In this document: positions 1 to 16,045 of the stretch, piece by piece
Numbering within the stretch: position 1 is the first letter of the stretch
How the letters are laid out: each line of letters begins with the position of its first letter
Source: Streptomyces pluripotens
GTDB lineage: Bacteria > Actinomycetota > Actinomycetes > Streptomycetales > Streptomycetaceae
DNA: 64,000 nucleotides
Assembly (NCBI RefSeq): GCF_000802245.2
Contig: NZ_CP021080.1
Span: 6,386,001 to 6,450,000 of the forward strand
Reading direction: 5' to 3'
Position numbers and translations under genes: made by a program
Notes under the pieces: generated by a model
Databases searched by the model: none
Seen by the model: the letters and a program-made list of their open reading frames with translations, nothing else
Told to the model about the DNA's origin: nothing

Positions 1-478
1 GTGCGTCGGCGGCCTCGGCCACGATCCCGGGTACGTCGCCGACCTGCGCGACCTCATCGACCGGTACGGTCTCTCCGACCGCCTGCACCTGACCGGCCCG
101 CGTTCCGGAGCTGACCTCGACGCCGCCTACGCCGCCGCCGACCTGATGGTCCTCACCTCCTACGCCGAGACCTACGGCATGGCGGTCACCGAGGCCCTCG
201 CCCGCGGCATCCCGGTCCTCGCCACCGATGTCGGCGGCCTACCCGAGGCAGTCGGCCGGGCCCCCGACGGCGGAGTTCCGGGCATCCTCGTTCCGCCCGA
301 GGACCCCGCCGCACTCGCCGCCGAACTGCGCGGCTGGTTCGGCGAGCCCGACGTGCGCCGTCGGCTCAAGGCGGCCGCCCGTGGCCGTCGCGCGGCACTC
401 GACGGCTGGGCGGCCACCGCCCGCAGCCTGGCCGGAGTCCTGCAGCGGCTCCCCGAAGCACCGAGGAGAGCGGCATGA
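1..478 (+). CDS. glycosyltransferase family 4, C-terminal part (cut by left edge)
   Basis: This is the C-terminal Rossmann half of a retaining GT-B (GT4) glycosyltransferase; the N-terminal acceptor domain lies outside the window. The open frame runs from base 2 without a stop. Visible features are the RLHLTGPRSGADL stretch, then DLMVLTSYAETYGMAVTEAL, the E-x7-E type donor-sugar motif, and LATDVGGLPEAV after it. The stop overlaps the start of the next gene (ATGA), so it is translationally coupled to the methyltransferase. Context with a methyltransferase, a flippase-like protein, a creatininase and a GTP cyclohydrolase paralogue suggests it glycosylates a small specialised metabolite rather than a cell-wall polymer. 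The sugar and acceptor cannot be told from the sequence. Confidence 0.9.
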   Translation, partial: CVGGLGHDPGYVADLRDLIDRYGLSDRLHLTGPRSGADLDAAYAAADLMVLTSYAETYGMAVTEALARGIPVLATDVGGLPEAVGRAPDGGVPGILVPPEDPAALAAELRGWFGEPDVRRRLKAAARGRRAALDGWAATARSLAGVLQRLPEAPRRAA

Positions 479-1623
479 GGGGCGCACGAAGCGCGGCGAA
501 CGGTTCGGTCCCGGCCCAGCCGGAGCCGACAGGGCCCGGAAGGATCGGAGTGACGGATGGAGGGACCGGGCCCGTCCGGTGGGCCAGCCGCCCGGAAAAA
601 CCGGCCGGGACACCCGGCGCCACCGACGGAAGAGCCACCCCCGCCGCCGGAGCCGAACCCTCCGCATCTGCCGCCGGCACCACGTCCGCCGCCGAAAGCC
701 CTGGTGCCGTCACCGTCATCCCCGGTGCCGGCCCCGTCACCCGCCCGGGCGAGCGGGCCACCGTACGGCTGCGCGACGGCGGCCCGAAGGAGCCTCCGCG
801 GTACGCGCCCGAATGGCTTGAGCTGCGGGAGCGTGCCGACGCGGCCGCGCGGGCACAGGACCTGCTGGACCCGCTGCGGATCCGGTGGGCCGCCGGGCCG
901 CGCCGGGCGGGCGGACTGGTCGTGCACGACCTCGGTTGTGGCACTGGATCAATGGGCCGCTGGCTGGCGCCCCGCCTGGACGGTGCCCAGCACTGGGTCC
1001 TGCACGACCGCGACCCCTACCTGCTGCACTTCGCCGCCGTGGCCTGCCCACGCACGGCCGCCGACGGCAGCCCCGTCACGGTCGAGACGCGCCGCGGCGA
1101 CGTGGCCCGGCTCACCCCGGACGCGCTGTCCGGGGCCTCGTTGGTGACCGCGTCCGCACTGCTCGATGTCCTCACCCGTGAAGAGGTCGAAGCCCTCGCT
1201 GGCGCCTGCGCGGGCGCCGGTTGCCCGGCCCTGCTCACCCTCTCCGTCGCGGGCCGTGTCGAACTCACGCCGGCCGACCCGCTGGACGCCGCGATGACCG
1301 AGGCGTTCAACGCACATCAGCGTCGCTCGGGACTTCTGGGGCCGGACGCGGTCACCGTGACGTGCGAGGCCTTCGCCCAGCGCGGCGCGACGGTACGGGT
1401 ACAGCCCAGCCTGTGGCGGCTCGGCCCCGAGGAGCCGGAGCTCACCGAGCAGTGGCTGCGCGGCTGGGTGGGCGCGGCCACCGAACAGCGTCCGGAACTA
1501 CGCGAACACGCCGAACGCTACCTGCATGAACGGTTGGCTGCCTGCGCGGCCGGTGAGCTGCGGGCCGTGGTTCACCACAGCGACCTGCTGGCCCTGCCCC
1601 AGCCGATGGACGGCGCGTCATGA
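475..1623 (+). CDS. class I SAM-dependent methyltransferase
   Basis: This is a 382-residue protein with a Rossmann SAM-binding core. Motif I reads VVHDLGCGTGSMGRW (about residues 145-160), followed by an acidic strand end (LHDRDPYLLHFA) and a later DALSGASLVTASALLDVL segment. The first ~100 residues are rich in Ala, Pro and Gly and carry no domain. The ATG at 475 overlaps the preceding stop, but an in-frame GTG at 550 behind AGGATCGGA could be the real start. The protein probably methylates the product of the neighbouring glycosyltransferase pathway; the substrate is unknown. The 3' end overlaps the next gene by ATGA, so three genes form one coupled operon. Confidence 0.85.
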   Translation: MRGARSAANGSVPAQPEPTGPGRIGVTDGGTGPVRWASRPEKPAGTPGATDGRATPAAGAEPSASAAGTTSAAESPGAVTVIPGAGPVTRPGERATVRLRDGGPKEPPRYAPEWLELRERADAAARAQDLLDPLRIRWAAGPRRAGGLVVHDLGCGTGSMGRWLAPRLDGAQHWVLHDRDPYLLHFAAVACPRTAADGSPVTVETRRGDVARLTPDALSGASLVTASALLDVLTREEVEALAGACAGAGCPALLTLSVAGRVELTPADPLDAAMTEAFNAHQRRSGLLGPDAVTVTCEAFAQRGATVRVQPSLWRLGPEEPELTEQWLRGWVGAATEQRPELREHAERYLHERLAACAAGELRAVVHHSDLLALPQPMDGAS

Positions 1624-3032
1624 GCGCGGGTGCGGCGGCCGGGCCGGGAGCCTGCGCGTACCCGCGTGCGACGCCACCGGACGTGACACCCGCCCGCCTG
1701 CAGTCCGCTGACACCGCACGTGCGCGCGGGCAGTCCGCGCACACGGCATGTGCGCGCGGACAGTTCCCCAGGGCGATACACGCACCAGTCCAGGTCGCCG
1801 ACATGGCCCACGTACGTGCGCGGCACGCCGGCGGCGGGCGCGTCCCTGACGCCACGACGGCGCTCGCAGAACCTGATTCGCCCGAGGGCACGCCAGCGTC
1901 CGCACCCGGGCCGAACCGCCCGGTTCCATGCCGCCGCTTCGGAGCCCGGGCCCTGCGCACCCACCTCGGCACCCTCGCCGGTGCGGTCATTCTCGTGGCC
2001 CTCCTGTGGCGGCTCGGCACCGGAGTCCTGCTCGACGGGCTCCAGCGGATCGACACTCCGACCGTGTTGGCTGCGCTGGGCATCGGCGGGGTCACCACCG
2101 TGTTGAGTGCATGGCGCTGGCAGTTGGTGGCCCGGGGGCTGCACATCCGACTGCCCCTGGGGACGGCCATCGCCGACTATTACCGTGCGCTGTTCCTGAA
2201 CGCAGCCCTGCCCGGCGGAGTCCTGGGCGACGTGCACCGGGCGGTACGGCACGGACAAGGCGCCGGTGACATCAAACGCGGGGTCAAGACGGTCGTGCTG
2301 GAGCGGGCCGCCGGACAGATCGCGCTGGCCGTGGCCGGCGCGACGGTGCTGCTCACCTTGCCGTCCCCGGTCCGCGCGGACGTCCGCAGCTTCGCCGCAC
2401 CAGCGGCCTACGCCACCGCCGGTGTGCTCGCCGTCGTTCTCGCCGTCCGGATGAACCGGGCACCCGCACGCCGCGGCGGCCGTCTGCGCGCGGTCGTCGG
2501 TGAGGTCCGGCACGGGCTGTTGTCCCGGCAGAACGGGCCGGGCATCGCGTTCTCCTCCGCCGTCATCCTCGCCGGCCACCTGGCGATGTTCGCCGTGGCC
2601 GCCCGGGTCGCCGGCTCCGCCGTGTCGGTCGTGGCGCTGACTCCGCTCGCCGTCCTCGCCCTGGCCGCCATGGGCCTGCCGCTGAACGTAGGCGGTTTCG
2701 GCCCCCGCGAGGGCGTCACCGCCTGGGCGTTCGCCGCCGCGGGCCTGGGCGCGGACACCGGGGTCGCTGTCGCCGTCGTCTACGGGGTGCTCAGCTTCGT
2801 GGCGAGCCTGCCCGGTGCCGCCGTCCTCGCTGCGCGCTGGTACACGGGCGCGCGGGCCGGGGCCACCGCGGCGGCTCCCGGGCCCACCGGGGGAACGGAC
2901 TACCCGCGTCCCTCGGTGGCGGTGAGCAACGCGGCATACGGTCCGAAGGAATCGGCGAGGCTCGCCAGGAGCGCCTTCCCCTTTTCCGCCGACCCCAGGG
3001 AAGGACAGCCTATGACACCCGATTCGGTATAG
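1620..3032 (+). CDS. flippase-like integral membrane protein (LPG synthase TM / UPF0104 family)
   Basis: From about residue 110 the protein has 7-8 hydrophobic helices with the family features ALPGGVLGDVHRAVRH and LNVGGFGPREGVTAWAF, as in lysylphosphatidylglycerol synthase membrane domains and dTDP-sugar/glycolipid flippases. It lacks the C-terminal aminoacyl-transfer domain of MprF, so a transport role is more likely than lipid aminoacylation. The start at 1620 overlaps the methyltransferase stop. The first ~110 residues are low complexity and contain two imperfect 23-bp direct repeats (near 1714 and 1746), so a later ATG at 1803 is an alternative. The last 133 bp lie antisense to the 3' end of the creatininase gene, so the C-terminal tail is probably a read-through extension. 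Confidence 0.8.
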   Translation: MSAGAAAGPGACAYPRATPPDVTPARLQSADTARARGQSAHTACARGQFPRAIHAPVQVADMAHVRARHAGGGRVPDATTALAEPDSPEGTPASAPGPNRPVPCRRFGARALRTHLGTLAGAVILVALLWRLGTGVLLDGLQRIDTPTVLAALGIGGVTTVLSAWRWQLVARGLHIRLPLGTAIADYYRALFLNAALPGGVLGDVHRAVRHGQGAGDIKRGVKTVVLERAAGQIALAVAGATVLLTLPSPVRADVRSFAAPAAYATAGVLAVVLAVRMNRAPARRGGRLRAVVGEVRHGLLSRQNGPGIAFSSAVILAGHLAMFAVAARVAGSAVSVVALTPLAVLALAAMGLPLNVGGFGPREGVTAWAFAAAGLGADTGVAVAVVYGVLSFVASLPGAAVLAARWYTGARAGATAAAPGPTGGTDYPRPSVAVSNAAYGPKESARLARSAFPFSADPREGQPMTPDSV

Positions 3033-3664
3033 GCGGACATTCCCGTGGTGAGCAGATGACGGCGATCATCGGCCGTGAAATCGGCGGACTCGTAACCAGG
3101 GCGGACACATTCGGGATGAGCGTGCAGCAGAATGGAGGTCTCGATTTCCCCCGCGTGCATGTCGGTCAGCAGCGAGGTGTGCACCCCCGCCCGCTCGCGT
3201 GCCGCCTCCCAGTCCTCGGCGGCCGGGAACAGCGCCACCTTCTCGCCGCGCGCGGAGGCTTCCTGTACGACGTTGCCCAGCACGTAGTTGCCGCCGTGGC
3301 CGTTGACCACGACGAGCGCGCCGATGCCGGAGCGGCGCAGCGACGCCGCGATGTCTTTGACCACCGCATGCAGAGTCGTGGCCGAGATGCTGACCGTCCC
3401 CGGCCAGGCCGCGTGCTCATGGGAGCAGGAAACCGTCACCGGAGGAAGGAGGTGTACCGGGTACGCTGCGGCGATCTCCCGCGCCAGGGCGCAGGCGACC
3501 AGTGTGTCGGTCGCCAGCGGAAGGAACGGGCCGTGCTGTTCGAAACTCCCGACGGGCAGGACGGCGACCTGTACTGAAACGTCCGCCCCCCGCATCCGTA
3601 CGTCTTCCGTAGTGTCCGTCGGCACCACCCCGAATGCCGCCGTACGCGCGTCCGAACCACTCAT
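2900..3664 (-). CDS. creatininase-family amidohydrolase
   Basis: This 254-residue protein has the family metal site: Glu42 and His44 in GSFEQHG, Asp53 in LATDTL, His123 in NGHGGN, and Glu173 in DMHAGEIET. The family includes creatininase, the mycofactocin peptidase MftE and archaeal FAPy deformylase (ArfB). It starts 38 bp from the divergent GTP cyclohydrolase II paralogue, whose active site predicts a FAPy product. A plausible role is therefore hydrolysis of the formamide or another amide of a FAPy-derived intermediate; this is inference from family and position. An internal ATG at 3595 is an alternative start. The 3' end overlaps the converging membrane-protein gene by 133 bp. Confidence 0.85.
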   Translation of the reverse strand: MSGSDARTAAFGVVPTDTTEDVRMRGADVSVQVAVLPVGSFEQHGPFLPLATDTLVACALAREIAAAYPVHLLPPVTVSCSHEHAAWPGTVSISATTLHAVVKDIAASLRRSGIGALVVVNGHGGNYVLGNVVQEASARGEKVALFPAAEDWEAARERAGVHTSLLTDMHAGEIETSILLHAHPECVRPGYESADFTADDRRHLLTTGMSAYTESGVIGCPSLGSAEKGKALLASLADSFGPYAALLTATEGRG

Positions 3665-3702: not shown

Positions 3703-4362
3703 ATGACAGAAAACATCGGTGTCCTCGGCAAGAAGTCCCCGCGGCGTTCGGGTGCGGAGCGCGTCGTGAATGCCCCGCTGCCCACCGTGTACGGAAAATT
3801 CCAGGCGATCGGCTACCTGGACCACGACCGCGGTGATGAACAAGTCGCCCTGGTATACGGTGACATCGGTGCCGAGAACGTGCTGACGAGGCTGCACTCC
3901 GAGTGCCTGACCGGAGACGCCTTCGGCTCCCGCCACTGCGAGTGCGGTGACCAACTGGCGGCCGCACTGCGCGCGGTGGCCACCGAGGGCAGCGGAATCG
4001 TCGTCTACCTGAGGGGCCACGAGGGTCGCGGCATCGGGCTCCTCGCCAAACTGCGCGCGATGGCCCTGCAGGCGGAGGGGTTGGACACCGTGGAAGCGAA
4101 CCTCGCGCTCGGGCTGCCGGTCGACGCCCGCGACTACCGCGTGGCGGCCGACATCCTGCACGACCTCAACGTCCGTTCAGTGCGGCTGATGTCCAACAAC
4201 CCGCGCAAGCGAGAGGCCCTGGTCCGACACGGCATCCAGGTCGCCGAGCAGGTGCCGCTGTTGATCGAGCCCTGCGAGAGCAACATCACCTACCTGCGGA
4301 CCAAGCGGGAGCGGATGGACCACCACCTGCCCCATCTGGACGCCGTGGCCCAGGGCTCCTGA
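3703..4362 (+). CDS. GTP cyclohydrolase II paralogue, Met120 (FAPy-forming) type
   Basis: This 219-residue protein starts at ATG 3703 behind AGGA. The zinc ligands are Cys68, Cys79 and Cys81 (HSECLTGD, HCECGDQ). The GTP-binding segments LRGHEGRGIGL and DTVEANLALGL are intact, and the NNPRK loop is present. The key difference is Met120 in KLRAMALQ; E. coli RibA has Tyr105 (KIRAYALQ) at this place. In the S. coelicolor paralogue SCO6655 the same Met120 was reported to give a product that keeps the formyl group (FAPy) instead of the fully processed riboflavin precursor. I therefore call it a specialised paralogue, not housekeeping ribA. The divergent creatininase-family gene may process the product. 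Confidence 0.93.
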   Translation: MTENIGVLGKKSPRRSGAERVVNAPLPTVYGKFQAIGYLDHDRGDEQVALVYGDIGAENVLTRLHSECLTGDAFGSRHCECGDQLAAALRAVATEGSGIVVYLRGHEGRGIGLLAKLRAMALQAEGLDTVEANLALGLPVDARDYRVAADILHDLNVRSVRLMSNNPRKREALVRHGIQVAEQVPLLIEPCESNITYLRTKRERMDHHLPHLDAVAQGS

Positions 4363-4494
4363 CACCGCCCGGCACCCCCTGTCGGGCCGTCCTCCGGCAC
4401 ACACGGCGCACACCGGGGAAACTGTCGCGGCTGTGCCACGTCCCCCGCGCGTACGCTGCCCAGCGCTCCGCTGCCCGCCGGAGGTGCTCGTTCC

Positions 4495-5821
4495 TCATCG
4501 TCGCGCGGTGACCCCGCCGGTGCCCCGTGCACCGGCGACGTACGTGCCCGGCACGACAGAATCGGACCCAGGTAGAGCGCAGGCCAGGGGTATACCGAGC
4601 GTGGCCACGGCCGCCAGCACGAGCAGCGCCGGCCCGGTGCCCGCGTCCAGCAACGTGGTCGCCGCCGCTACCCCCACGGCCGGGCCCACGTTGAGCGCGG
4701 TCTGCTGCAGCCCACCGGCAACCCCGGCCACACCTGGGTCCGCCCGTCGTACGATCACATGGGTGGCGGCCATCATCACCGTGCCGAACCCAGCCCCCAG
4801 CAGCGCGAAGGCGCACGCAAGGGCCGGAACAGCGGTGGCCCGGGACAGCGGTGGCCCGGGACAGCACGGCACCACCTAGCGCCACAACCGCCGCCGCAGC
4901 TCTCGTAGCGGCCCGCACTCCGAACCGGCGCAGCACCACGGGGCACAGGGCCGCGGACAACACCATCAGCACCGCCAGCGGCAGGCTGCGCAGCGCACTG
5001 CGGAACGGGTCCAGGCCGAGGCGGCGCTGCAGCAGATACGTGGCGACGAACAGGGTGCCGAACAGGGACGCGGACACGGCGACCAGGATGCCGAAGGCCG
5101 CCCCGGCCGCTCGCGAGCCAATCACTTCCGGCGGCGGTAGCGGGCTCGCCGCCCGTCGCTCGCGCCGCACGAGAGCGGCAGCCGCGAGTAGCGCCAGGAC
5201 ACCGCTCACCGGCACGGCGGGCCGGGTGGCCAGCGTGTGCACCAGGCAACCCAGTGACACGGCGAGCAGCACGGCACCCGGCAGGTCCAGGGGCGTCCGC
5301 CGGCCCGCCGGGCGCGGGTCCGCCGGGCGCGGGTCCGGCCGGAACAGGGCCGGCAGCCCGAACGCGAGCGCCGGCAGCACGTTGACGAAGAACACTGCCC
5401 GCCAGCCCAGGTCCGTCACCAGTGCCCCGCCCACCAGCGGTCCCGCAGCCGTGGCCAACCCGATCGCGCCGGTTCGCACTGCGAGGGGCCGCGCGAGCCG
5501 GTCCGCCGGGTACGCGGCCCGCAGCATCCCGAGCGTGGCAGGTTGCAGCAACGCCCCGAACACGCCTTGCAGCGCCCGCAACCCAGTCACCCAGCCCACT
5601 TCGGGCGCGAAGCCGATGCCTGCCGAGGCTGCACCGAACCCCAGCATGCCGAGCGCGAACGTTCGCTGCTGTCCGTACCGGTCGCTGAGTCTCCCCCCGA
5701 ACACCAGCAGGCCCGCCACCACGACCAGATACGCCGTACTGGTCCACTGCACCTGGCCGAACGTAGTGTGTCCGCGAGGTGCGGTATGCGGATAGTGGAT
5801 ACGGCATACGAGCGACTGCAT
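4495..5821 (-). pseudogene. MFS drug/metabolite exporter, frameshifted and 5'-truncated
   Basis: Most of a DHA2-like MFS exporter can be read: QWTSTAYLVVVAGLLVFGGR, SDRYGQQRTFALG, then LQPATLGMLRAAYPADRL. The frame breaks near 4850. The C-terminal part (LLGAGFGTVMMAATHVIVRR, ending at 4495) is in another frame. A 16-bp tandem duplication at the break accounts for it: removing one copy brings the two frames together at LSRATAVP. The first membrane helix is also absent, because homology begins abruptly near 5770 next to a heptamer repeat. It may once have exported the product of the adjacent cluster. About 130 bp without a gene separate its end from the converging cyclohydrolase gene. Confidence 0.85.
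4829..4865. repeat. 16-bp tandem duplication that breaks the MFS gene
   Basis: AGCGGTGGCCCGGGAC occurs at 4831-4846 and again at 4847-4862, with period-16 identity over 4829-4865. Sixteen is not a multiple of three, so the duplication shifts the frame, and removing one copy restores it. Confidence 0.95.
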
Positions 5822-6032: not shown

Positions 6033-7196
6033 TCAGCCGGGACGGGCCGGTTGGTCCACCCGGGGGTCCGGCGAAGCTGCAGTCGCGGTCGCTCCGTCCT
6101 CGACCCATGTCTGCAGCAGGTCCACGAACTCGGTTGCTTGGGTCTGCCAGTTGAGCTCCGACAGGGCGGCTGCACGGCCCTGTCGGGCGGTGCTCAGACG
6201 CAGCGCGGCGTCACCGGCGAGGCGACGGACCGCATCCGCCGCCGCCCGTGGATCCTCATAGGGGACCACGAGACCACATCGGTGCTGTTCGACCAGCTGT
6301 GCGGCCAGCGGGGTCGGGGTGGTGACGACGGGAACGCCGTGGGCCATGTACTCGACGACCTTCGTGGGTCTGGAATGGCGGTAGTTGGGCTGGTCATGGA
6401 GGAGGGACAGACCTGCCAGCGCACCAGGGAGCAGGGCGAGCGCCCGGTCGTTGGGCAGGAAACCGTGCCAGTGCAGCACTCCGTCCCGGCCTGCTGCCGC
6501 GAGTGCGTCCCGGATATCGGGGTCCGCCGCGCCGATCGCCTCGACCCGGACCTCCGGGGCCAGCAGCCGTGCCGTGGCGATGAGGTCCAGGGCGCCGCGT
6601 GCGCGAGACAGGTGGCCGAGGTAGACGATCCGTCCGGTGCCGGGTGGCGGGGGCGGGCCGACCGGCGGGGTGGCGAGGTTGGGGATGACGGGGTGGGGCC
6701 GGCGGAATCGGGTCTGGTAGGCGTCCTCGGCGAGGAGCAGTCGCAGGTGGCGTTCGGCCAGTCGTTCCAACGCCCGCACTGCGGCCCGTAGTAGTGGGCG
6801 CAGTGCACCGGGCACCCAGTTCTTCATGGCCAGTGCTGCCGCCGTGTCCTCGTGGACGTCCCACACGGTGACGGGGGCTGGACCGGACCGCCGCCAGCGG
6901 CGCAGTGTGCCGCGCAGGGCCAGCAGTAGCTCGGGATCGTGCAGCAGCACCACGTCGGCCGCCGGTCCGCGTTGGGCCAGCAGGTTCCGGGCCGCACGCA
7001 GTGCGGTACGGCGGTCCCGGCCGGCCGCGCGGGGCAGGTCGACTCCCTCGACGTAGGGCCGTGGAGTCGTCTCGAGGGCGGCGAACGGAGCTGCGTACAC
7101 CACGTGGTGGCCACGCTCGCGCAGAGCGGCTATCTCCCGGTGCAGTATGCGTGCGTCCTCGGGGTGGTGGACGACGGTGACGACCAGTATCCGCAT
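6033..7196 (-). CDS. glycosyltransferase family 4
   Basis: This 387-residue GT-B enzyme is complete. The N-terminal domain starts MRILVVTVVHHPEDARI with a WDVHED segment. The C-terminal nucleotide-sugar domain has GRIVYLGHLSRARGALDL, a WHGFLPNDRAL stretch, and the donor-site motif RPTKVVEYMAHGVPVVTT. It is the last gene of the left-going arm of the glycan cluster, 66 bp after the dehydrogenase. It probably adds one sugar to a lipid-linked or polymeric acceptor on the cytoplasmic side; donor and acceptor are unknown. Confidence 0.9.
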   Translation of the reverse strand: MRILVVTVVHHPEDARILHREIAALRERGHHVVYAAPFAALETTPRPYVEGVDLPRAAGRDRRTALRAARNLLAQRGPAADVVLLHDPELLLALRGTLRRWRRSGPAPVTVWDVHEDTAAALAMKNWVPGALRPLLRAAVRALERLAERHLRLLLAEDAYQTRFRRPHPVIPNLATPPVGPPPPPGTGRIVYLGHLSRARGALDLIATARLLAPEVRVEAIGAADPDIRDALAAAGRDGVLHWHGFLPNDRALALLPGALAGLSLLHDQPNYRHSRPTKVVEYMAHGVPVVTTPTPLAAQLVEQHRCGLVVPYEDPRAAADAVRRLAGDAALRLSTARQGRAAALSELNWQTQATEFVDLLQTWVEDGATATAASPDPRVDQPARPG

Positions 7197-7262
7197 GGAA
7201 GTGCCTTTCGGGTCGGCTCGATTCCGCGGGCGGGCCAGGCGATCGGCATCGGGGCCGGAGGT

Positions 7263-8597
7263 CTAGAGAACCTCAACGCCGGGTTGGAAGATCCGGCCGC
7301 GGGTGTCGAACAGCAGCCGCGCGGTATCGGCGATGGCCCGCAAGTCGTAGGCGGAGTGGTCCTGGAGCAGGATCGTCAGGTCCTGTTCGCGCAGTGCGGC
7401 CGTCAGATCGCCGGCGCGGGGGACGGCGACCCCGTCGACGGACCACAGCGGGACGTGCGGATCGTGGAAGGCGACCTCGGCTTTCCGTTCCTTCAGCAGC
7501 CGTGCCACGGGCACTGCCGGGGTCTCCCGCCGGTCGGCGACGTCCGGCTTGTAGGTGATGCCGAGCAGCAAGACCCGTGAACCGTGCAGCGGGCGTCCCG
7601 CGGAATTGAGCAGGTCCTGGGCCCGACGGACCACGTACTCCGGCATGCGTCGGTTGATCTCCTGGGCCAGCTCAATGAACCGGAACTCGTGCCCCAGGGA
7701 CGAACGTACCTTGTAGGAGAGGTAGTTGGGGTCAATGGGTATGCAGTGGCCGCCCACTCCGGGGCTGGGGCGGAAGGCCTGGAAGCCGAAGGGCTTGGTT
7801 CCCGCGCAGCGGATCGCGTCCCACACGTCGACGTGCAGTTCGCGGCTGATGATGGCCAGTTCGTTGACCAGGGCGATGTTGACGTGCCGGTAGGTGTTCT
7901 CCAGGAGTTTGGCCATCTCGGCCTCGCGGGTGCCCCTGGCCTGTACGACCGTGTCCACGATCTTGCCGTAGAAGGCCACCGCACGCACCGCGCAGGACGG
8001 GGTGCATCCGCCGACCACCTTCGGCGTCTCACGCAGCCCGTGCTGGGTGTTGCCGGGGTCGATCCGCTCGGGAGAGAAGGCGAGCGCGAAGTCCTCGCCG
8101 GCGCGCAGCCCGGTCTCCTCCAATAGGGGGCGTACGACCTCCTCGGTGGTGCCCGGATAGGTCGTCGACTCCAGCACTACCAACTGGCCGCGCTGCAGGT
8201 GGCCGGCCACCGCGCGGGCAGCCGAGACGACCGCGCCCAGGTCCGGTCCCCCGTCCTCACCGAGCGGTGTCGGCACACAGATCACCACGGTCTGAGCCCG
8301 GGCCAGACAGGCACCATCGGTGGAAGCGGTGAAACCGGCGTCCCGCATCCTGCGCACGTCGCGGTCGGACACGTCATCGATGTGCGAACGGCCGGAGTTC
8401 AGCCGTGTGACGACCCGTGGGTCGCGATCCAGGCCCACGACACGCAGGCCCACCGAGGCCGCCTCCCGGGCCAGGGGCAGTCCGACGTAACCGAGTCCGA
8501 TCACTGCGAGCTCGACGGCGTCGGGCCGTCCTTCCTGCCGCTCGTCCCCGAGCGGTTCACTGCTGTCCCCGAGGTGTTGGTTCCGTTCGACCTGCAT
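7263..8597 (-). CDS. UDP-N-acetylhexosamine 6-dehydrogenase (WecC/WbpA type)
   Basis: This 444-residue nucleotide-sugar dehydrogenase oxidises C6 of a UDP-HexNAc in two NAD+-dependent steps. The NAD site is AVIGLGYVGLPLARE (about residues 31-45). The central part has ESTTYPGTTEEVV and FSPERIDPGNT. The catalytic cysteine sits in GVGGHCIPIDPNYL, and the C-terminal domain has LLGITYKPDVADRRETP. Together with the epimerase at 10335 it could turn UDP-ManNAc into UDP-ManNAcA; UDP-GlcNAc as substrate cannot be excluded. It lies between two glycosyltransferases of the same strand. Confidence 0.92.
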   Translation of the reverse strand: MQVERNQHLGDSSEPLGDERQEGRPDAVELAVIGLGYVGLPLAREAASVGLRVVGLDRDPRVVTRLNSGRSHIDDVSDRDVRRMRDAGFTASTDGACLARAQTVVICVPTPLGEDGGPDLGAVVSAARAVAGHLQRGQLVVLESTTYPGTTEEVVRPLLEETGLRAGEDFALAFSPERIDPGNTQHGLRETPKVVGGCTPSCAVRAVAFYGKIVDTVVQARGTREAEMAKLLENTYRHVNIALVNELAIISRELHVDVWDAIRCAGTKPFGFQAFRPSPGVGGHCIPIDPNYLSYKVRSSLGHEFRFIELAQEINRRMPEYVVRRAQDLLNSAGRPLHGSRVLLLGITYKPDVADRRETPAVPVARLLKERKAEVAFHDPHVPLWSVDGVAVPRAGDLTAALREQDLTILLQDHSAYDLRAIADTARLLFDTRGRIFQPGVEVL

Positions 8598-8648
8598 AAG
8601 GAATCACCCGGCCTTCACGGCTGGACTGGTGGTGGAGGGTGCAGGACT

Positions 8649-10100
8649 TCAGACGCATCCGAGAGAGCGATACGCCTCGCGGGTCGTCGTGGCGACCCGG
8701 GCCCAGGTGCGTTCCCGCGTGACCATCGCGCGAGCGGCCGCTCCCCATTCGAGTCGTCGCTTATGACTGTAAAGCACCGTTTCGAGGGCATCTGCCCAAG
8801 CCCGGGGTGATTCAGGGGGAATTAGCTGCCCGTTAACCTCTGGTTTGACCAATTCCCTGATGGCGGTGAGATCACTTGCCAGTACGGGGATACCGCTCGC
8901 CATCGCTTCGACCGGTTTGAGAGGGGTCACCAGATGACACACCTGCTCGTCGGTGCGCGGCACCGCGAACACGTCCAACACAGCATGGAAATAAGGCACT
9001 TGGGTGTGCGGCACTCGTCCGGTGAACATGGCCGTGCCATCGTCCAGGCCCAGCCGTGCGGCCATCCGCCGCAGGGGCACGCGCTCAGGGCCGTCGCCCA
9101 CGATCAGCAACCGCAGCCGAATTCCGCGCCGCCTGAGCTCAGCACCCGAACGGAGCAGTGTGCCAATCCCCTCGTGCGGGGTGAGACTGCTGACGGTGCC
9201 GACCACGAACTCGTCCGGGGCGATACCGAGGCGAGCACGCAGCCCCGCCCCGTCCGGCTGCGGAGCCAGGAAGGTGTCGTCCACGGCGTTCGGGACGATC
9301 AGCACCCGCTCGGCGGGGACACCGCGCGCCACGATCTCGGTCTTCATCGCGGCACCGAGGGTCAGGACCAGGTCGGCTTCCCGCATGCAGTGCGTCTCCA
9401 GCTCGCGTCGCATGCGGTAGACGGGATCCTGTCGACTGCGTGTCGGATCCTGCGTCAACCAGGTCTCCTCCAGAAAGCCCCGTACTTCGTATACCGCCGG
9501 CAGCCCGAAGGTTTCCCGCAGGGCGAGGGCTACCCGTCCGTTGCCGTGGTCGCTGGCCGCGTGCAGCACCGCGGGCCGGAGCCGTGCCACGAGTCGCGCG
9601 GCGAGTTCGGCGTTGCGGGCCAGTGCCGGACCCTGCCCGTAGGGCAGCCACACGGGCAGCAGCCGGTGCTGCGGCACACCGCATACGGTCTGCAGTGGGC
9701 TGGCGTCCACCACCCCCTGCGTCACCGGAAACCCGATCCGGGTCACGACGTGCGGGTCGAGCCCCGCGGCCCGCTGCGCCTCGGCGAGCTTCTGAGTACG
9801 CACGGTGTACCCGGCGTGGACGAACGGCAGCGAGTTGGTCACCACGTGCAGCACCCGTCCGGGCACGGGGCACACCGGCCGACCCGTGGGGGCGCTCACC
9901 CGGACGGCGGACGGAGCCGCGCCCGGCCCCGTCGTACGGGCCCGGGAGGACAGCCAGCGTTCCACCGGCCGTGTCCGGCGTCGCACGGGTTCCGGCAGCA
10001 GCCGTACACCGAGGAGCGCGGCCCTGGCGGGATCGTGGCGCAACTCGCCCCAGGCGACGGATGCGGCCAGACTGACAGCGCGGGGGACACGGCGGGACAT
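8649..10100 (-). CDS. glycosyltransferase family 4
   Basis: About 483 residues with an N-terminal basic extension of ~80 residues before the GT-B fold begins (GRVLHVVTNSLPFVHAGYTV). Further features are YEVRGFLEETW, VPNAVDDTFLAP, the donor-domain block VVGTVSSLTPHEGIGTL, and the E-x7-E type motif in TPLKPVEAMASGIPVLASD. I start at ATG 10100 (MSRRVPR); an ATG ten codons upstream is possible. No clear Shine-Dalgarno is visible. It is the first gene of the left-going arm, divergent from the epimerase. The sugar specificity is not readable. Confidence 0.9.
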   Translation of the reverse strand: MSRRVPRAVSLAASVAWGELRHDPARAALLGVRLLPEPVRRRTRPVERWLSSRARTTGPGAAPSAVRVSAPTGRPVCPVPGRVLHVVTNSLPFVHAGYTVRTQKLAEAQRAAGLDPHVVTRIGFPVTQGVVDASPLQTVCGVPQHRLLPVWLPYGQGPALARNAELAARLVARLRPAVLHAASDHGNGRVALALRETFGLPAVYEVRGFLEETWLTQDPTRSRQDPVYRMRRELETHCMREADLVLTLGAAMKTEIVARGVPAERVLIVPNAVDDTFLAPQPDGAGLRARLGIAPDEFVVGTVSSLTPHEGIGTLLRSGAELRRRGIRLRLLIVGDGPERVPLRRMAARLGLDDGTAMFTGRVPHTQVPYFHAVLDVFAVPRTDEQVCHLVTPLKPVEAMASGIPVLASDLTAIRELVKPEVNGQLIPPESPRAWADALETVLYSHKRRLEWGAAARAMVTRERTWARVATTTREAYRSLGCV

Positions 10101-10334
10101 GTCGCCACGGTAGGCCGAAGACCGCAGCACCGCCGCCCGCGCCGCCGCGGGAGCACACCCGTGCCGTGCACGCGCCTACGGCCCGGCTCACCCACCCCCC
10201 GCAGAGTCCCTTGACCACCCCTGATCCCGTGAGCCTCCGGTTGCCCTGGTCGTCCCTGACGGCCCCTGGCCGCCCCGGATTCCTCTGGTCCCCCTCCTGA
10301 TCTCCCCGCGGACCGCCGACGAAAGGCGAGGACA
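10101..10334. promoter_or_regulatory. divergent promoter region of the glycan cluster
   Basis: About 234 bp separate the two divergent arms and should hold both promoters. A TTGACC at 10211-10216 could be a -35 element for the rightward arm, but no convincing -10 is visible. GGCGAGG before 10335 is the ribosome site for the epimerase gene. I see no repeated operator. Confidence 0.5.
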
Positions 10335-11423
10335 ATGAACGGCCGAGTACTCCATGTGGTCGGCACCCGGCCCAACTTCGTGAAGGCGGCACCAGTCGTC
10401 GCCGCGCTCGGGATGGCCGGGTGCGACCAGGTCCTGGTCCACACCGGGCAGCACTACGACACCCGGATGTCGGACGTGTTCTTCCGCCAGCTGGGACTTC
10501 CCCGACCGGACACCGATCTGGGCGTCGGTTCCGGCAGCCACGCTCGGCAGACCGCCGATCTGCTGGTGGCACTCGACGCCGAGCTGGCCGTCCGCGCACC
10601 AGCCCTGGTCGTGGTGTACGGCGACGTCAACTCGACGCTCGCCGCCGCCTTGGCCGCCGCCAAGCGGGATATCCCGGTCGCCCATGTGGAAGCGGGCCTG
10701 CGCAGCTTCGACATGACGATGCCCGAGGAGGTCAACCGCCGCCTGGTCGACCAGCTGGCCGAGCTGCTGTTCGCCACCAGCCCCGAGGCCATCGGCCATC
10801 TCGCCCGCGAAGGCGCCGACCCGGCCCGGACGTACCTCGTCGGCAACCCGATGATCGACACCCTGCTCACCCACCTGGACCTCTTCGACCCGGCCGCCGC
10901 GCGGACCACGTACGAACTGCCCGAACGCTACGGCGTGGTCACCCTGCACCGTCCCGCCAACGTCGATGATCCCCAGGCCGCCCGCGCCGCCGCGAGGACG
11001 CTCACCGAGGCAGCCCGCGCGCTCGACCTCGTCGTCCCCCTGCATCCCCGCGGCCGCGAGACGCTGCACGCGGCCGGCCTGGCTGCCGCGCCCGGTGTGC
11101 ACCTCATCGAACCCCTCGGATACATCGAGTTCATGAGCCTCGTGCGCGGCGCGGCGGCCGTGATCACCGACTCGGGCGGGGTGCAGGAGGAGACCACAGT
11201 GCTCGGCGTACCCTGCCTGACGCTGCGCACCACCACCGAACGCCCGGTCACTGTCACTCACGGCACCAACCGGCTCGTCACGCACACCGAACTCGTGCCC
11301 GCCCTGTGCAAAACACTCGACGCGGGGCCGTCCGCACCCGCCGAAGGGCCGCCCCTGTGGGACGGCAGGGCCGGCGTCCGGATCGCCCGCGTCGTCACCC
11401 GCTGGTTGGAGCACCATGACTGA
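10335..11423 (+). CDS. wecB: UDP-N-acetylglucosamine 2-epimerase (non-hydrolysing)
   Basis: The 362-residue protein has all family signatures in order: VVGTRPNFVKAAPV at the N-terminus, HTGQHYD, VVYGDVNSTLA, AHVEAGLRSFD followed by PEEVNRR, TLHRPANVDD, and TDSGGVQEE near the end. It interconverts UDP-GlcNAc and UDP-ManNAc in the cytoplasm. With the dehydrogenase of the opposite arm it would supply UDP-ManNAcA for a surface polymer. The gene starts at ATG with a GGCGAGG site and overlaps the next gene by 8 nt. Length matches the family. Confidence 0.95.
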   Translation: MNGRVLHVVGTRPNFVKAAPVVAALGMAGCDQVLVHTGQHYDTRMSDVFFRQLGLPRPDTDLGVGSGSHARQTADLLVALDAELAVRAPALVVVYGDVNSTLAAALAAAKRDIPVAHVEAGLRSFDMTMPEEVNRRLVDQLAELLFATSPEAIGHLAREGADPARTYLVGNPMIDTLLTHLDLFDPAAARTTYELPERYGVVTLHRPANVDDPQAARAAARTLTEAARALDLVVPLHPRGRETLHAAGLAAAPGVHLIEPLGYIEFMSLVRGAAAVITDSGGVQEETTVLGVPCLTLRTTTERPVTVTHGTNRLVTHTELVPALCKTLDAGPSAPAEGPPLWDGRAGVRIARVVTRWLEHHD

Positions 11424-12045
11424 CGCGACCCTCGGCTACGGGGACACCCGCGACCGCGAGCAGCACGAGCTCGCCCCCGATGGCCACCCCGGCCTCGACC
11501 GGGCCGGCAACGAGCTGTACCACGCGCTGCGGCTGGGCACGCTGCTCTCACTCGTCGGAGACCTCAGCAGCCCGGCAGCTCCCCTGTTCGTGCTCGACGC
11601 GGGTTGTGGCGAGGGCTCCTTCGCGCGGGCCTTGGCCCGCTGTGGACATCAGGTGGATGCCTTCGATGCCAGCGAGGAGGCCGTCGAACGGGCTCGCGCC
11701 GCCGGCGGAGGTCCGCACTACGCCCGGGCCCGGCTGGACGCATGGCGCAGCCCGTGGCCGTACGACGTCGTCCTGTGCATCGACGTCCTCTTCCATCTCC
11801 TCGACGACCCCGAGTGGTCGGCGGCGCTGCGCAACCTGGCCTCCCTGGTCCGACTCACCGGACAGCTGATCCTCACCGACGAGGACCGGACCGGGCCCCG
11901 CAAGCGCGACGACCACACGCTGCACCGGCCGACGGCCGCCTACCGCGCTGAACTTGAACCCCTCGGCCTGCGGCACACCGAGTTCCGGCCATACGGTTTC
12001 AGGGAGTCCGAGGTCGGCTTCCACGTCTTCACGAGGACCCGATGA
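11416..12045 (+). CDS. class I SAM-dependent methyltransferase
   Basis: A 209-residue methyltransferase. Motif I is FVLDAGCGEGSFARAL (about residues 56-71), followed by VDAFDASEEAVERA and the motif IV-like VVLCIDVLFHLLDD. The start overlaps wecB by 8 nt, and the stop overlaps the next gene (ATGA), so it belongs to a coupled four-gene arm. It likely methylates a sugar or a terminal residue of the glycan; chain-end methylation is a known way to stop polymer growth, but here that is only a guess. Confidence 0.88.
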   Translation: MTDATLGYGDTRDREQHELAPDGHPGLDRAGNELYHALRLGTLLSLVGDLSSPAAPLFVLDAGCGEGSFARALARCGHQVDAFDASEEAVERARAAGGGPHYARARLDAWRSPWPYDVVLCIDVLFHLLDDPEWSAALRNLASLVRLTGQLILTDEDRTGPRKRDDHTLHRPTAAYRAELEPLGLRHTEFRPYGFRESEVGFHVFTRTR

Positions 12046-13862
12046 TGCGCCTGACCGATCTGCTCCACCCGCACCTGGACGGCGTCACCACGGTCATCGA
12101 CGCGGCCCCTCACAGCCTGCGTCTCGCGCCCTACCTGCACCTCCCGGACGGTGTCGTCCTGCTCGACGACGATGGCGAACGACACATGGGGGAAGGCGAA
12201 ATGGTACTCGTCCCGTACGGCCCGGACCCTGCTCTGTACGGCACCGAAGCCGACTGCCTCGCCGTACTGGAACGCCTCCGGCCCGGAGGGCGAGGCTTGC
12301 TCCTCTTCGGTCACCCCGGGCCGGAGCCGCCCTATCACCGGCTCCTGGACAGTCTGGTGGCTCACCGCTGCCAGGTGCTGCGCGCTGCCCCGCTCGACTA
12401 CGCACACCTACACGCCGGTGCGGTTTTCGTGTGCCTCGGTACGGACGAACTCCTGCCGACGCACGACTGGTTCGGTCGCCCGGTGCCGCCGGACGGCTTC
12501 GCTGCCACGTTGCGCCTGGCCGGCGAGTACGTTCTCGCCGACCTCGTCTCCCGCTCGCTGCGGGCCCGCCACCTCGATCTTCAGCGCCGGGCGCAGGAGG
12601 CGGAACACCTGCGGGACGCCGCCCGTGAGGAGAGGCTCACCGACCGCCTGGCCGCCGCCGTCCAGGAGAAGGAACAACTGGCCGCCGCGCTGCGTGCGGC
12701 ACGCGAGCGGGCCGGGGCGCTGGAGGCGCGGGTGGCCATGCTGGAGGGCTCGACCTCACTGAAGGTGGGCAAGGCGCTGGTTTCGGCGGCGCGCCGCCCG
12801 CGGCGTGCCGCGGTGACTCTGCCCAGGGAACTGTTCGGACTGTGGCGCGGGCGCACCGCGCACAAGCCGGTGCCGGCATCCCGCCCCGCCGGGGACGGCT
12901 CCACGGCCGTGGCCGCCGACGGGCGCCTCCACCTCGTTCACCGTGCCTTCTCCTGTGTGCCCCGCGACCGTCTGGTGATCGCCGGTGTGTTGACCGACCG
13001 CACCGCCGGGGACTTCGCGGCGGACGCCATCGTGAACCGGATGCTTCCGCACGACGCCGTCCTCCTGCTGCAACGCACCGACCCCGACGCGGTCGTGGTG
13101 CAGCTGAGCGCCTGCACGGGTGACGGACCCTGGTCGCTCCTGGGCACCGGCCTGGCTCCCGACCTGGACCGGAAGCTGGCCGAACTCCTCTCCCAGGCAC
13201 GGGCTCTGGGCCGTCCGGCTGTCCTGTGGCGGGACGCCCCGGGGGCTGCAGCGCCGGGCCTCGCCCGGCTGACCTGGGACGCCGTGCTCGACGCCGGCAC
13301 CGGCGTGTGTCTCTCCCGGCTCGACCCGGCCGAACACGGCAGGGAACGGCTGCGTGAGGTGTTCCAGCGGGACAGCACCCGGGTGCGGCTGGCGGAACTG
13401 GCCCGATTGGTGGGCGCCCCGGACCCGCTCGACCAGCGCCGGGTCGCCGTACTGGCTGAGCCGCGTGACCGGCACGACGTGGCCCGGCTGGTCGCACAGG
13501 TACTCGGCCAGCGGCACCGTCCGGCCGAAGTGGTCGTCGCGGACCCAGCGGGTCTGGAGGAACTCACCGGTGCGGGCGTTGCCGTCCGTACCGGGCTGCC
13601 CACCGCGCCCTGGACGGCGTACTGGACCGATCCGGCCGGAGAACGCCCGGACACCTTGCTGCTGGACCTGATGTGCGCTCAGGAACACTCAGGGGCGGAC
13701 GCTTTGGGGCGTGCCGGAGCGGCAGCCGACTACACCTTCGTACCGGAACTGCGGTGGCCACTCCTCGTGCGCTCGTCCCTTCACACCGCGGGTACACCGC
13801 CGGAGACCTGGTGCGGCCAGGGATACCGTCTCTTCGCCGTATGCGGGAAGGAGCCGTCATGA
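12042..13862 (+). CDS. unrecognised 606-residue protein with central coiled coil
   Basis: I do not recognise this protein as a whole. Residues 1-160 resemble the second half of a methyltransferase fold (LERLRPGGRGLLLFGH) but have no glycine-rich SAM motif. Residues about 165-236 are charged and heptad-like (coiled coil), ending in LEGSTSLKVGKAL and an Arg-rich stretch, a junction seen in large glycan-assembly proteins that end a coiled coil with an S-x-S-x-R/K motif. The C-terminal ~350 residues are alpha/beta without motifs I can name. It is coupled by ATGA on both sides to a methyltransferase and a tandem glycosyltransferase, so a scaffold or chain-length role in the glycan cluster is plausible. 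Confidence 0.8.
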   Translation: MMRLTDLLHPHLDGVTTVIDAAPHSLRLAPYLHLPDGVVLLDDDGERHMGEGEMVLVPYGPDPALYGTEADCLAVLERLRPGGRGLLLFGHPGPEPPYHRLLDSLVAHRCQVLRAAPLDYAHLHAGAVFVCLGTDELLPTHDWFGRPVPPDGFAATLRLAGEYVLADLVSRSLRARHLDLQRRAQEAEHLRDAAREERLTDRLAAAVQEKEQLAAALRAARERAGALEARVAMLEGSTSLKVGKALVSAARRPRRAAVTLPRELFGLWRGRTAHKPVPASRPAGDGSTAVAADGRLHLVHRAFSCVPRDRLVIAGVLTDRTAGDFAADAIVNRMLPHDAVLLLQRTDPDAVVVQLSACTGDGPWSLLGTGLAPDLDRKLAELLSQARALGRPAVLWRDAPGAAAPGLARLTWDAVLDAGTGVCLSRLDPAEHGRERLREVFQRDSTRVRLAELARLVGAPDPLDQRRVAVLAEPRDRHDVARLVAQVLGQRHRPAEVVVADPAGLEELTGAGVAVRTGLPTAPWTAYWTDPAGERPDTLLLDLMCAQEHSGADALGRAGAAADYTFVPELRWPLLVRSSLHTAGTPPETWCGQGYRLFAVCGKEPS

Positions 13863-16045
13863 GCCGGGTGGTACGGGCCCTGGTCTACGGCGATGTGGAC
13901 CTCAACCTCATCGACGGCTCCGCCGTCTGGGCCCAGTCGACCGTGCAGGCGCTGTCGTTGGCGGGATGCGAGACCCGGCTGGTGCTCAAGGCCCCCGTGC
14001 GCACGGGACGGCTCACCGACCCGCTGGCCGGGCTGCCCGGGGTGACGGTGGTGCGGCCGGCCGAGGAACGGCTTGTCGACGGGCAGCGGGGCCGACCGCT
14101 GTCACCGGTGCAGGCCTCCCGGCTGCTCGCCCGGCTGGACCGCGAGGAGGCCTGTGACCTGCTGGTGCTACGCGGGCGCAGGCTCGTCGGTCAGGTCGTC
14201 GCCGACGGTCACTTCGGCGGGCGGATCTGGGCCTACCTCACCGACATCCCGCAGTCCGCCGCCACGATGACCGAGCAGGCCCGCGCGGAACTCGCCTCGA
14301 TCGCCGTGGCGTCCCGGCGGCTCCTCTGCCAGACCGAGGAATTGCGCTGCCTGCTGGAAACCTGGGTGCCCGAGGCCTGCGGCCGGAGTGTGCTCTGCCC
14401 GCCGGCCGTGCCGGAACCCAGCTTTGAGGTCCCGTGCCGCGACCAGCCGCACGATCCGCTGCGGCTCGTCTATACCGGGAAGTTCGCACCGCTGTGGAAC
14501 ACCCTTCCCATGACCCAACTGCCCTCCTTGCTGGCCCGCCGGGGTGTGCATGTCGAACTGCACACCGTCGGCGACAAGATTCACGACGATCCCGCACAGC
14601 CCGGTTTCCGGGACGCGATGTTCCGGTCTCTGCACGGGGGGACCCCCGGCGTCCGGCACCACGGCGGGCAGCCTCGCGAGGAGGCGATGCGCATTGCCGC
14701 GGCCTGTGACCTCGGCCTCGGCTGGCGGGACCCGCTGCTCGACTCCAGCCTGGAACTGTCCACCAAAGTACTGGAGTTCGGCTCGCTCGGTCTGCCCGTC
14801 GTGCTGAACCGCACCCCCGCGCACGAGGCGCTGCTGGGAGTCGGCTACCCGCTCTACGTCGACGGCCGGGCCGGACCCGAGGACGCCGCCGCGGCCATTG
14901 CCCGTGCCGCCCGCGACCCCGGGGCCCGACGGCTCGCGGTCGACCGCTGCCGGGACGCCGCCGGACGGTACACCCTTGAGGCCGCCGCCGCCCGCTGGCG
15001 CACCCACCTCGATCAGGCCTTCCCACCCGCGCCTGCCGCCGTGACCGGGCGCACCCGCCCGCTGAGGGTTGGTGTGGCGGGCCATGACCTGAAGTTCTTC
15101 ACCCGGATCCTCGATCACTTGCGTGCCCTGCCCGGACTCGACGTGCGCGTCGACGCCTGGCCCGCGCTTGCCGGGCACGACCCGGCTGCCAGCCGTGAAC
15201 TGGCCGATTGGGCCGACGTGGTGATCGTCGAATGGTGTGGGCCGGCCGCCGTCTGGTACAGCCGCCACAAGCGGCGCGGCAGCCGGCTCGTGATCCGGCT
15301 CCACCGGTTCGAACTGGACGCCGTCTGGCCGCGACAGGTGGACATCGGTGCCGTCGACCAGGTGGTGTGCGTCAGCCCGTACTACGCCCGCCGCACCCTG
15401 GAACACACCGGTTGGCCGGCCGCCAAGGTCACGGTGGTACCCAACTGGGTGGATGCCGACCAACTCGATCGGCCGAAGACGCCCGGAGCCCAGTTCCGTC
15501 TCGGCATGATCGGGATCGCGCCCAGCCGCAAGCGCCTCGACCTCGGTCTGGACGTCCTCCAGACGCTGCGCGCCCGGGACCGGCGCTGGCACCTGTCGGT
15601 CAAGTCCCAACCGCCGTGGCAGTACTGGTGGATCTGGAACAAGGCCGAGGAGCGGGCGCACTACGACGCGATCCTGCGCCGAGTTCAGACCTCCCCGCTG
15701 CTACGAGGAGCGGTCGTCTTCGACGAGTTCGGCGCGGACGTGGCGGGTTGGCTGCGCCGGGTGGGGCACGTGCTGTCCACCAGCGACGACGAGAGCTTCC
15801 ACCTTGCTCCGGCCGAGGGGATGGCCTCCGGTGCCGTACCGGCGCTGCTGCCGTGGCCCGGGGCGGACGAGATCTACGACCGGCGCTGGATCCATGACGG
15901 GCCGGCGGCGATGGCGGAGGCGATCGCCGCGCTGGGCGATCCGGCGACCTGGCGGGCAGCCGCTGGTCTGGCCCGGGCCCAGGTGCGGGAGTCCTATGCG
16001 CTGGACCGTGTGACGGCGGCTTGGACGGACCTCGTGACCGGCTGA
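13859..16045 (+). CDS. tandem (two-domain) GT-B glycosyltransferase
   Basis: A 728-residue protein made of two GT-B units. Residues 1 to about 395 form the first unit (VYGDVDLNLIDGSAVWAQST at the start, LRLVYTGKFAPLW and STKVLEFGSLGLPVVLNR in the donor domain). From about residue 405 a second unit begins (LRVGVAGHDLKFFTRILDHL), with VTVVPNWVDADQLD, FRLGMIGIAPSRKRLDLGLD and ESFHLAPAEGMASGAVPAL. ATG 13859 overlaps the preceding stop, so I prefer it over upstream in-frame starts. Two active sites in one chain could add alternating sugars of a repeat unit. It is the last gene of the right-going arm. Confidence 0.9.
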   Translation: MSRVVRALVYGDVDLNLIDGSAVWAQSTVQALSLAGCETRLVLKAPVRTGRLTDPLAGLPGVTVVRPAEERLVDGQRGRPLSPVQASRLLARLDREEACDLLVLRGRRLVGQVVADGHFGGRIWAYLTDIPQSAATMTEQARAELASIAVASRRLLCQTEELRCLLETWVPEACGRSVLCPPAVPEPSFEVPCRDQPHDPLRLVYTGKFAPLWNTLPMTQLPSLLARRGVHVELHTVGDKIHDDPAQPGFRDAMFRSLHGGTPGVRHHGGQPREEAMRIAAACDLGLGWRDPLLDSSLELSTKVLEFGSLGLPVVLNRTPAHEALLGVGYPLYVDGRAGPEDAAAAIARAARDPGARRLAVDRCRDAAGRYTLEAAAARWRTHLDQAFPPAPAAVTGRTRPLRVGVAGHDLKFFTRILDHLRALPGLDVRVDAWPALAGHDPAASRELADWADVVIVEWCGPAAVWYSRHKRRGSRLVIRLHRFELDAVWPRQVDIGAVDQVVCVSPYYARRTLEHTGWPAAKVTVVPNWVDADQLDRPKTPGAQFRLGMIGIAPSRKRLDLGLDVLQTLRARDRRWHLSVKSQPPWQYWWIWNKAEERAHYDAILRRVQTSPLLRGAVVFDEFGADVAGWLRRVGHVLSTSDDESFHLAPAEGMASGAVPALLPWPGADEIYDRRWIHDGPAAMAEAIAALGDPATWRAAAGLARAQVRESYALDRVTAAWTDLVTG

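Follow-up and report, generated by a model that had tools for sequence, protein, structure and literature searches.

A GTP cyclohydrolase II with Met120 and its creatininase-family neighbor: a probable split entry into a non-riboflavin pathway of Streptomyces

The catalytic tyrosine of RibA (Tyr105 in E. coli), the GTP cyclohydrolase II (GCHII), is associated with the formation of APy, and a reductase, ArfC, carries out the third step of the archaeal route to riboflavin and FO. In S. coelicolor the GCHII SCO6655, which we take to carry a methionine at position 120 (Met120), reportedly forms the formylated pyrimidine FAPy, its M120Y variant being said, in the work of Spoonamore et al. of 2006, to regain APy formation. 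To our knowledge, the fate of FAPy in Streptomyces has been open since that characterization.

The start of archaeal riboflavin/FO synthesis by ArfA (GTP cyclohydrolase III) and ArfB (a formamide hydrolase) is described in PMC13028884. In bacteria, BrbF of Sinorhizobium meliloti, a protein annotated as a creatininase, deformylates FAPy for riboflavin synthesis; its authors state that it has no sequence similarity to ArfB and that the FAPy-making enzyme feeding it awaits discovery; their main text mentions neither Streptomyces nor coelicolor (PMC9478397). According to PMC2853524, SCO6655 and SCO2687 (GTP cyclohydrolase II) are among the genes whose expression runs against the predicted flux, most of which are raised in stationary phase, and PMC3610822 tabulates SCO6652, as a hypothetical protein, in connection with MI and MII mycelia. 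Among the matches listed for open-licence articles in PMC, neither the gene cluster considered here, nor its product, nor a link between SCO6655 and a creatininase was found; the 2006 paper on SCO6655 and the 2009 paper on ArfB may name the neighboring gene.

The window analyzed here, i.e., the whole stretch of 64,000 nucleotides from Streptomyces pluripotens, contains at positions 3703-4362 of the plus strand an ORF for a protein of 219 amino acids that matches PF00925 over the whole domain (220.7 bits against a Pfam cut-off of 23.3) and the NCBIfam model TIGR00505 for ribA (230.5 bits against a cut-off of 205.85). PF00925 is the sole Pfam family in this protein and homology to ArfA (GTP cyclohydrolase III) was not found in it. 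Almost all homologs match from the first residue that the 3703 start gives, and this start is accordingly favored over the upstream in-frame ATG at 3634. In the HMMER alignment with 2bz0, E. coli RibA, Met120 of the window protein stands opposite Tyr105, and 4i14 likewise has a tyrosine opposite this residue; the catalytic tyrosine of GCHII is replaced, and the three zinc cysteines of RibA are present as Cys68, Cys79 and Cys81. The motif KLRAMALQ, in which Met120 lies, recurs in 80 of 80 relatives from named Streptomyces, so that the alignment and the relatives both bear out the initial annotation, which had placed a methionine at the catalytic tyrosine of an enzyme with an intact zinc site.

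The neighborhood points to SCO6655. A homolog of 6-pyruvoyltetrahydropterin synthase (PTPS), encoded upstream of the window (L004 14734-15225, plus strand), has in a single-sequence search SCO6650 (3d7j) as its only solved match, with 254.5 bits, and the six genes from this homolog to the GCHII fit the numbering SCO6650 to SCO6655. Having both the methionine at site 120 and this neighborhood, the window GCHII appears, by gene counting from SCO6650, to be the ortholog of S. coelicolor SCO6655. In view of this apparent orthology to a protein that reportedly makes FAPy, the prediction that the window enzyme forms FAPy is not new, and it stands as that of an ortholog of a known case. The initial annotation had drawn the same parallel with an S. 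coelicolor paralog, and the resemblance to the SCO6655 type holds; what it missed is the partner creatininase. It is this partner, together with a clade-wide pairing, that is added here to what is known of SCO6655.

The genes between these two markers form a cluster. The window opens with the end of a family 4-type glycosyltransferase (1-478, plus strand; gene call and Pfam) whose start lies 778 bases before the window, followed on the same strand by a methyltransferase-like protein in the position of SCO6652 (475-1623; PF13649 with 28.7 bits, cut-off 27) and by an LPG_synthase_TM/flippase-like membrane protein (1620-3032; PF03706, 105 bits). Upstream of the window, gene calls and Pfam identify, besides the PTPS homolog, an ADH-like protein (L004 13604-14596, plus strand) and a CDP-alcohol phosphatidyltransferase (L004 12735-13577, minus strand). 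Among 80 loci of named Streptomyces the LPG_synthase_TM protein adjoins the GCHII and the creatininase in 79 and the methyltransferase-like protein is present in 76, while the CDP-alcohol phosphatidyltransferase, ADH-like protein, PTPS homolog and glycosyltransferase are present in 73, the seven loci without them having less than 3 kb of DNA ahead of the GCHII. The PTPS homolog itself occurs in 57 of 394 genomes of the class sample and, in samples that overlap with this one and with each other, in 18 of 101 genomes of the family, 31 of 120 of family f17 and 57 of 200 of the order of G290.

The cluster protein is related to PTPS by its match to PF01242 (82 bits); close to it stands a protein of solved structure (SCO6650, 3d7j). 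Aligned to 1b66, it has Ala for Cys, Asn-Tyr for the Asp-His pair and HGA for HGH, and aligned to 1b66 and 3i2b it lacks the Cys, the Asp-His pair and the zinc His of PTPS. The family has conserved motifs, yet the catalytic residues of PTPS are replaced, and PTPS chemistry is therefore not expected of it.

Several features around the cluster may be recorded in their own right. The MFS transporter gene that follows the GCHII (4286-5821, minus strand) seems to have a frameshift near 4870: its MFS match stops at residue 320, and another frame (4495-4875) gives a weak one. Farther on, the region 6033-16045 encodes glycosyltransferases, a UDP-sugar dehydrogenase and a protein that by eye resembles a UDP-GlcNAc epimerase (10335-11423), which suggests a neighboring glycan cluster; in relatives these genes seldom accompany the GCHII (UGD does so in 8 of the 80 named loci). 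ARAGORN calls a tRNA-Cys at 13190-13279 (minus strand), which lies within a long ORF (12042-13862).

The gene adjoining the GCHII encodes a creatininase-family amidohydrolase, the predicted FAPy formamidase (CREATININASE; 2900-3664, minus strand), that matches PF02633 with 213 bits and is transcribed divergently from the GCHII, the two start codons being 38 bp apart. Its scores bring it closer to MftE than to ArfB and reach the NCBIfam cut-off for neither (134 of 172 bits for TIGR03964 and 37.8 of 180 bits for NF033501, respectively), and its identification as ArfB or MftE was rejected on account of both cut-offs. Glu42, His44, Asp53, His123 and Glu173, which we take to be the metal-site residues, are invariant in 22 of 22 sequences, and an AF2 model (mean pLDDT 75.5) matches creatininases, a result that supports the fold only.

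Could this gene pair simply serve riboflavin synthesis? In the 7.35-Mb host genome there are two further GCHIIs, at 929693 and 3810168, both of them with the tyrosine, so that riboflavin need not depend on the Met120 enzyme; the initial annotation, for which the lack of any other ribA would have meant riboflavin synthesis, had proposed to look for a second one of the tyrosine type. Its conclusion that the gene belongs to a specialized pathway gains from these two copies and from the conserved cluster, and is incomplete insofar as the adjacent creatininase had escaped it. On the other hand, a GCHII, a formamidase and a RibD_C reductase would together yield a riboflavin intermediate, and BrbF of S. 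meliloti, according to PMC9478397, does serve riboflavin, from which one might imagine that the window GCHII provides a reserve of riboflavin precursor and that its neighbors are unrelated to it. We consider this quite improbable: the copy at 929693 has the tyrosine and bifunctional length, and the PTPS-like, glycosyltransferase and membrane protein genes are kept together with the GCHII in 73 of the 80 named loci. Plain riboflavin supply was dropped as the first choice because both the cluster neighbors and the two Tyr-type GCHIIs speak against it.

As to the third copy, it is divergent to an ArfC-like RibD_C gene, and the pair (C1:3810168-3812149) is the same gene pair that is found inside Tyr-type clusters of other genera. 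In the genus sample, by hand count, at least three GCHII matches are listed in 27 of 40 genomes that have a Met-type GCHII (>316 bits), and at least two in 11 of 61 genomes that do not.

The distribution of the creatininase was followed, with profiles built in this analysis, in a wider set of 110 fetched pieces (40 and 70) plus the window, the 80 named Streptomyces loci being counted apart. The pieces were selected by their PTPS homolog, except for 10 Streptomyces pieces selected by GCHII score and the extension piece L284. A creatininase is present in 48 of the 49 loci whose GCHII has Met, His, Leu, Gln or Asn instead of the tyrosine (the window, 10 picks by GCHII similarity and, for the rest, loci found through the PTPS homolog), in none of the 27 loci with a Tyr-type GCHII in the cluster, and in one of the 35 rows without a GCHII, which include L284, not a separate locus but a piece of 6.7 kb fetched to extend that of L271 in the same genome. 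The one apparent exception among the non-Tyr loci, L167, was rejected as such after a genome-wide search, its creatininase (262 bits with the window protein) lying at G478:C1:3221899, some 4 kb outside the piece that had been fetched; L223, the row with a creatininase and no GCHII, is a 6.2-kb contig. In the named Streptomyces loci, Met-type GCHII and creatininase occur together in 80 of 80. The best creatininase score per listed piece ranges from 344 to 401 bits, other actinobacterial creatininases reaching at most 177 with the same profile.

Genome-wide follow-up, which covered the earlier GCHII-less and Tyr-type pieces, found with a cut-off of E 1e-10 no creatininase above 70 bits in 14 genomes whose cluster piece has no GCHII and none above 93 bits in nine genomes with an in-cluster Tyr-type GCHII; all 22 GCHII copies of the 14 former genomes have the tyrosine. 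The two genes lie on opposite strands in all 47 rows measured, and are adjacent in f1 and f46; in f17 some are adjacent and others are separated by as much as 12 kb.

Site 120 is occupied in the 49 non-Tyr GCHIIs by Met (22), His (19), Leu (6), Gln (1) and Asn (1). Such variability within one clade is what would be expected if the enzyme were dead or drifting and Met120 a neutral change, an explanation to which we give hardly any credence: the zinc cysteines Cys68, Cys79 and Cys81 as well as Glu67, Asp72, Arg109, Asp141, Arg143 and Lys169, nine other residues of the active-site region, are kept in 49 of 49 (window included), the methionine itself is kept in 80 of 80 close relatives, and SCO6655 is reportedly active. 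That site 120 alone is relaxed among the residues compared, and that the pair persists both where the genes adjoin and where as much as 12 kb separates them, supports a reaction that may be divided between two enzymes.

How many times the pairing arose is another question. In a tree built from 106 GCHII domains, two changes are required for the group with non-Tyr GCHII and creatininase, which forms a single clade in 50% of the bootstraps, the residue at site 120 as such requiring six changes; 24 of the 27 in-cluster Tyr-type GCHIIs fall in a separate subfamily that they share with the third copy of the present genome. Loss of the tyrosine probably occurred once or twice among the sampled GCHIIs, with no later return. 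With one or two origins on this tree, the counts given above reflect retention within a clade and not repeated origin, so that the notion of 49 and 27 loci as independent pieces of evidence was abandoned and no use is made of the Fisher values that had been calculated.

Presence of a creatininase with every non-Tyr GCHII examined and with none of the in-cluster Tyr-type GCHIIs suggests that FAPy is deformylated by the partner, Met120 dividing the GCHII reaction between two proteins instead of delivering a formylated product to a different chemistry. The latter is in essence the version of the initial annotation, in which formylated FAPy is the precursor of the specialized pathway; on this view the creatininase would cut some other amide or peptide bond, as an MftE-like enzyme might. 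This is unlikely, in our judgment, even if MftE gives the creatininase its best NCBIfam score and even if relatives of the creatininase also occur in two genomes apart from non-Tyr GCHIIs. Indeed, among 396 genomes of the phylum, two from other classes have relatives of the creatininase (288 and 272 bits, the next best score being 111), and four of the four GCHIIs in these two genomes have the tyrosine, a fact that counts against a universal pairing rule. However, clusters that have a Tyr-type GCHII, an expected APy maker, and otherwise the same genes are without the creatininase in all 27 cases, and the creatininase adjoins reductases of the APy type.

One such case is found in G1079, one of the two genomes of other classes, where an ArfC-like RibD_C gene precedes that of the creatininase, with about 430 bp between them (L315:14734-16956); no other cluster genes were found in the 33 kb fetched, and this RibD_C belongs to another subfamily than that of Streptomyces. 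This arrangement fits the pathway proposed below, not the pairing rule. In the second genome the 17-kb contig that holds the creatininase gave no further match to the cluster profiles.

RibD_C proteins are distributed differently in the two kinds of cluster. In the wider set a RibD_C protein accompanies Tyr-type GCHIIs in a strong form in 23 of 27 pieces, in a weak form in three and in one not at all, the corresponding figures for the non-Tyr pieces being one, 11 and 37 of 49; non-Tyr clusters outside Streptomyces seldom have a RibD_C inside the locus. The present genome has a RibD_C of the strong kind near 3811520, beside the third GCHII (277 bits). All 22 tested Streptomyces genomes with a window-type cluster have an extra RibD_C: in 11 a different RibD_C directly follows the creatininase on the same strand and the first kind is absent genome-wide, and in the other 11 the first kind is present and none lies inside the locus. 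In f17 and f46 together, a RibD_C is present in 27 of 27 tested genomes with a non-Tyr cluster and in seven of seven whose cluster piece has no GCHII; among genomes without the cluster it is present in eight of 10 of f17 and five of 14 of Streptomyces. Of these distributions only the swap in Streptomyces is informative, and the swap too follows the clades of the GCHII tree. The nearest solved relatives of the RibD_C proteins are 5xux (110-116 bits), which we take to be an archaeal Rib7/ArfC, and then 6p8c (77-91 bits), named an APy reductase; the bacterial RibD 2b3z trails with about 50 bits.

The substitution in an otherwise intact active site, the cluster, the in-cluster co-distribution of GCHII and creatininase and the RibD_C genes can be read directly in the sequences, and on these grounds we assign a probability of about two in three to a pathway in which the reaction of GCHII is split. 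The Met120 enzyme would open GTP to the formylated pyrimidine FAPy and stop there because the tyrosine linked to the deformylating half-reaction is missing; the divergently transcribed creatininase-family enzyme would then strip the formyl group from FAPy, yielding APy, and a stand-alone ArfC-like RibD_C, whose gene lies near 3811520 in this genome and next to the creatininase in some other Streptomyces, would probably act as reductase on the ribosyl side chain. The ADH-like, PTPS-like, glycosyltransferase, methyltransferase and membrane proteins would receive this product on the way to an end compound other than riboflavin. FAPy would thus most likely be an intermediate that the neighboring partner deformylates, GCHII and creatininase together replacing one classical GCHII. 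We infer each of these reactions, the order of the steps and the product from the genes just mentioned.

A broader proposal, which we put forward tentatively and hold to be somewhat less likely than not, is that many actinobacteria make an undescribed pyrimidine/pteridine-type compound, probably glycosylated and handled by membrane proteins, in whose synthesis the PTPS-like protein would act on a diaminopyrimidine and not on a pterin. Its pathway might have two interchangeable entries, namely a one-enzyme Tyr-type GCHII or a Tyr-less GCHII with a creatininase-family formamidase, the bacterial equivalent of ArfA-B-C.

The split pathway would offer a fate for FAPy in Streptomyces and an instance in which a multistep enzyme that has lost one residue can come with a partner enzyme, and it draws attention to a conserved cluster that includes the solved structure 3d7j of a PTPS homolog. 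Furthermore, it proposes, at the level of sequence, a candidate type for the bacterial enzyme feeding a FAPy formamidase, which the authors of the BrbF study describe as missing (PMC9478397); if the proposal is true, Tyr-less GCHII paralogs become the first candidates for the "BrbG" of BrbF-bearing bacteria.

Compared with the described systems, the window GCHII shares with SCO6655 both the residue at the site (reportedly Met120) and the inferred neighborhood, and nothing known differs between the two. With 6-pyruvoyltetrahydropterin synthase/QueD the cluster protein has the PF01242 match in common and differs from it in that the catalytic positions are replaced. BrbF and the window neighbor share the creatininase-family annotation and would share the deformylation of FAPy; BrbF serves riboflavin (PMC9478397), whereas the window creatininase sits in a non-riboflavin cluster. 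With the archaeal ArfA-ArfB-ArfC route the proposed pathway would share the order GTP → FAPy → APy → reduction by a RibD_C-type enzyme. The enzymes themselves are unlike: ArfA is a GTP cyclohydrolase III whereas the first enzyme in the window is a GCHII, and the window creatininase scores far below the ArfB cut-off, as mentioned above. Finally, the Arf route makes riboflavin/FO, whereas the cluster of the window is not a riboflavin cluster.
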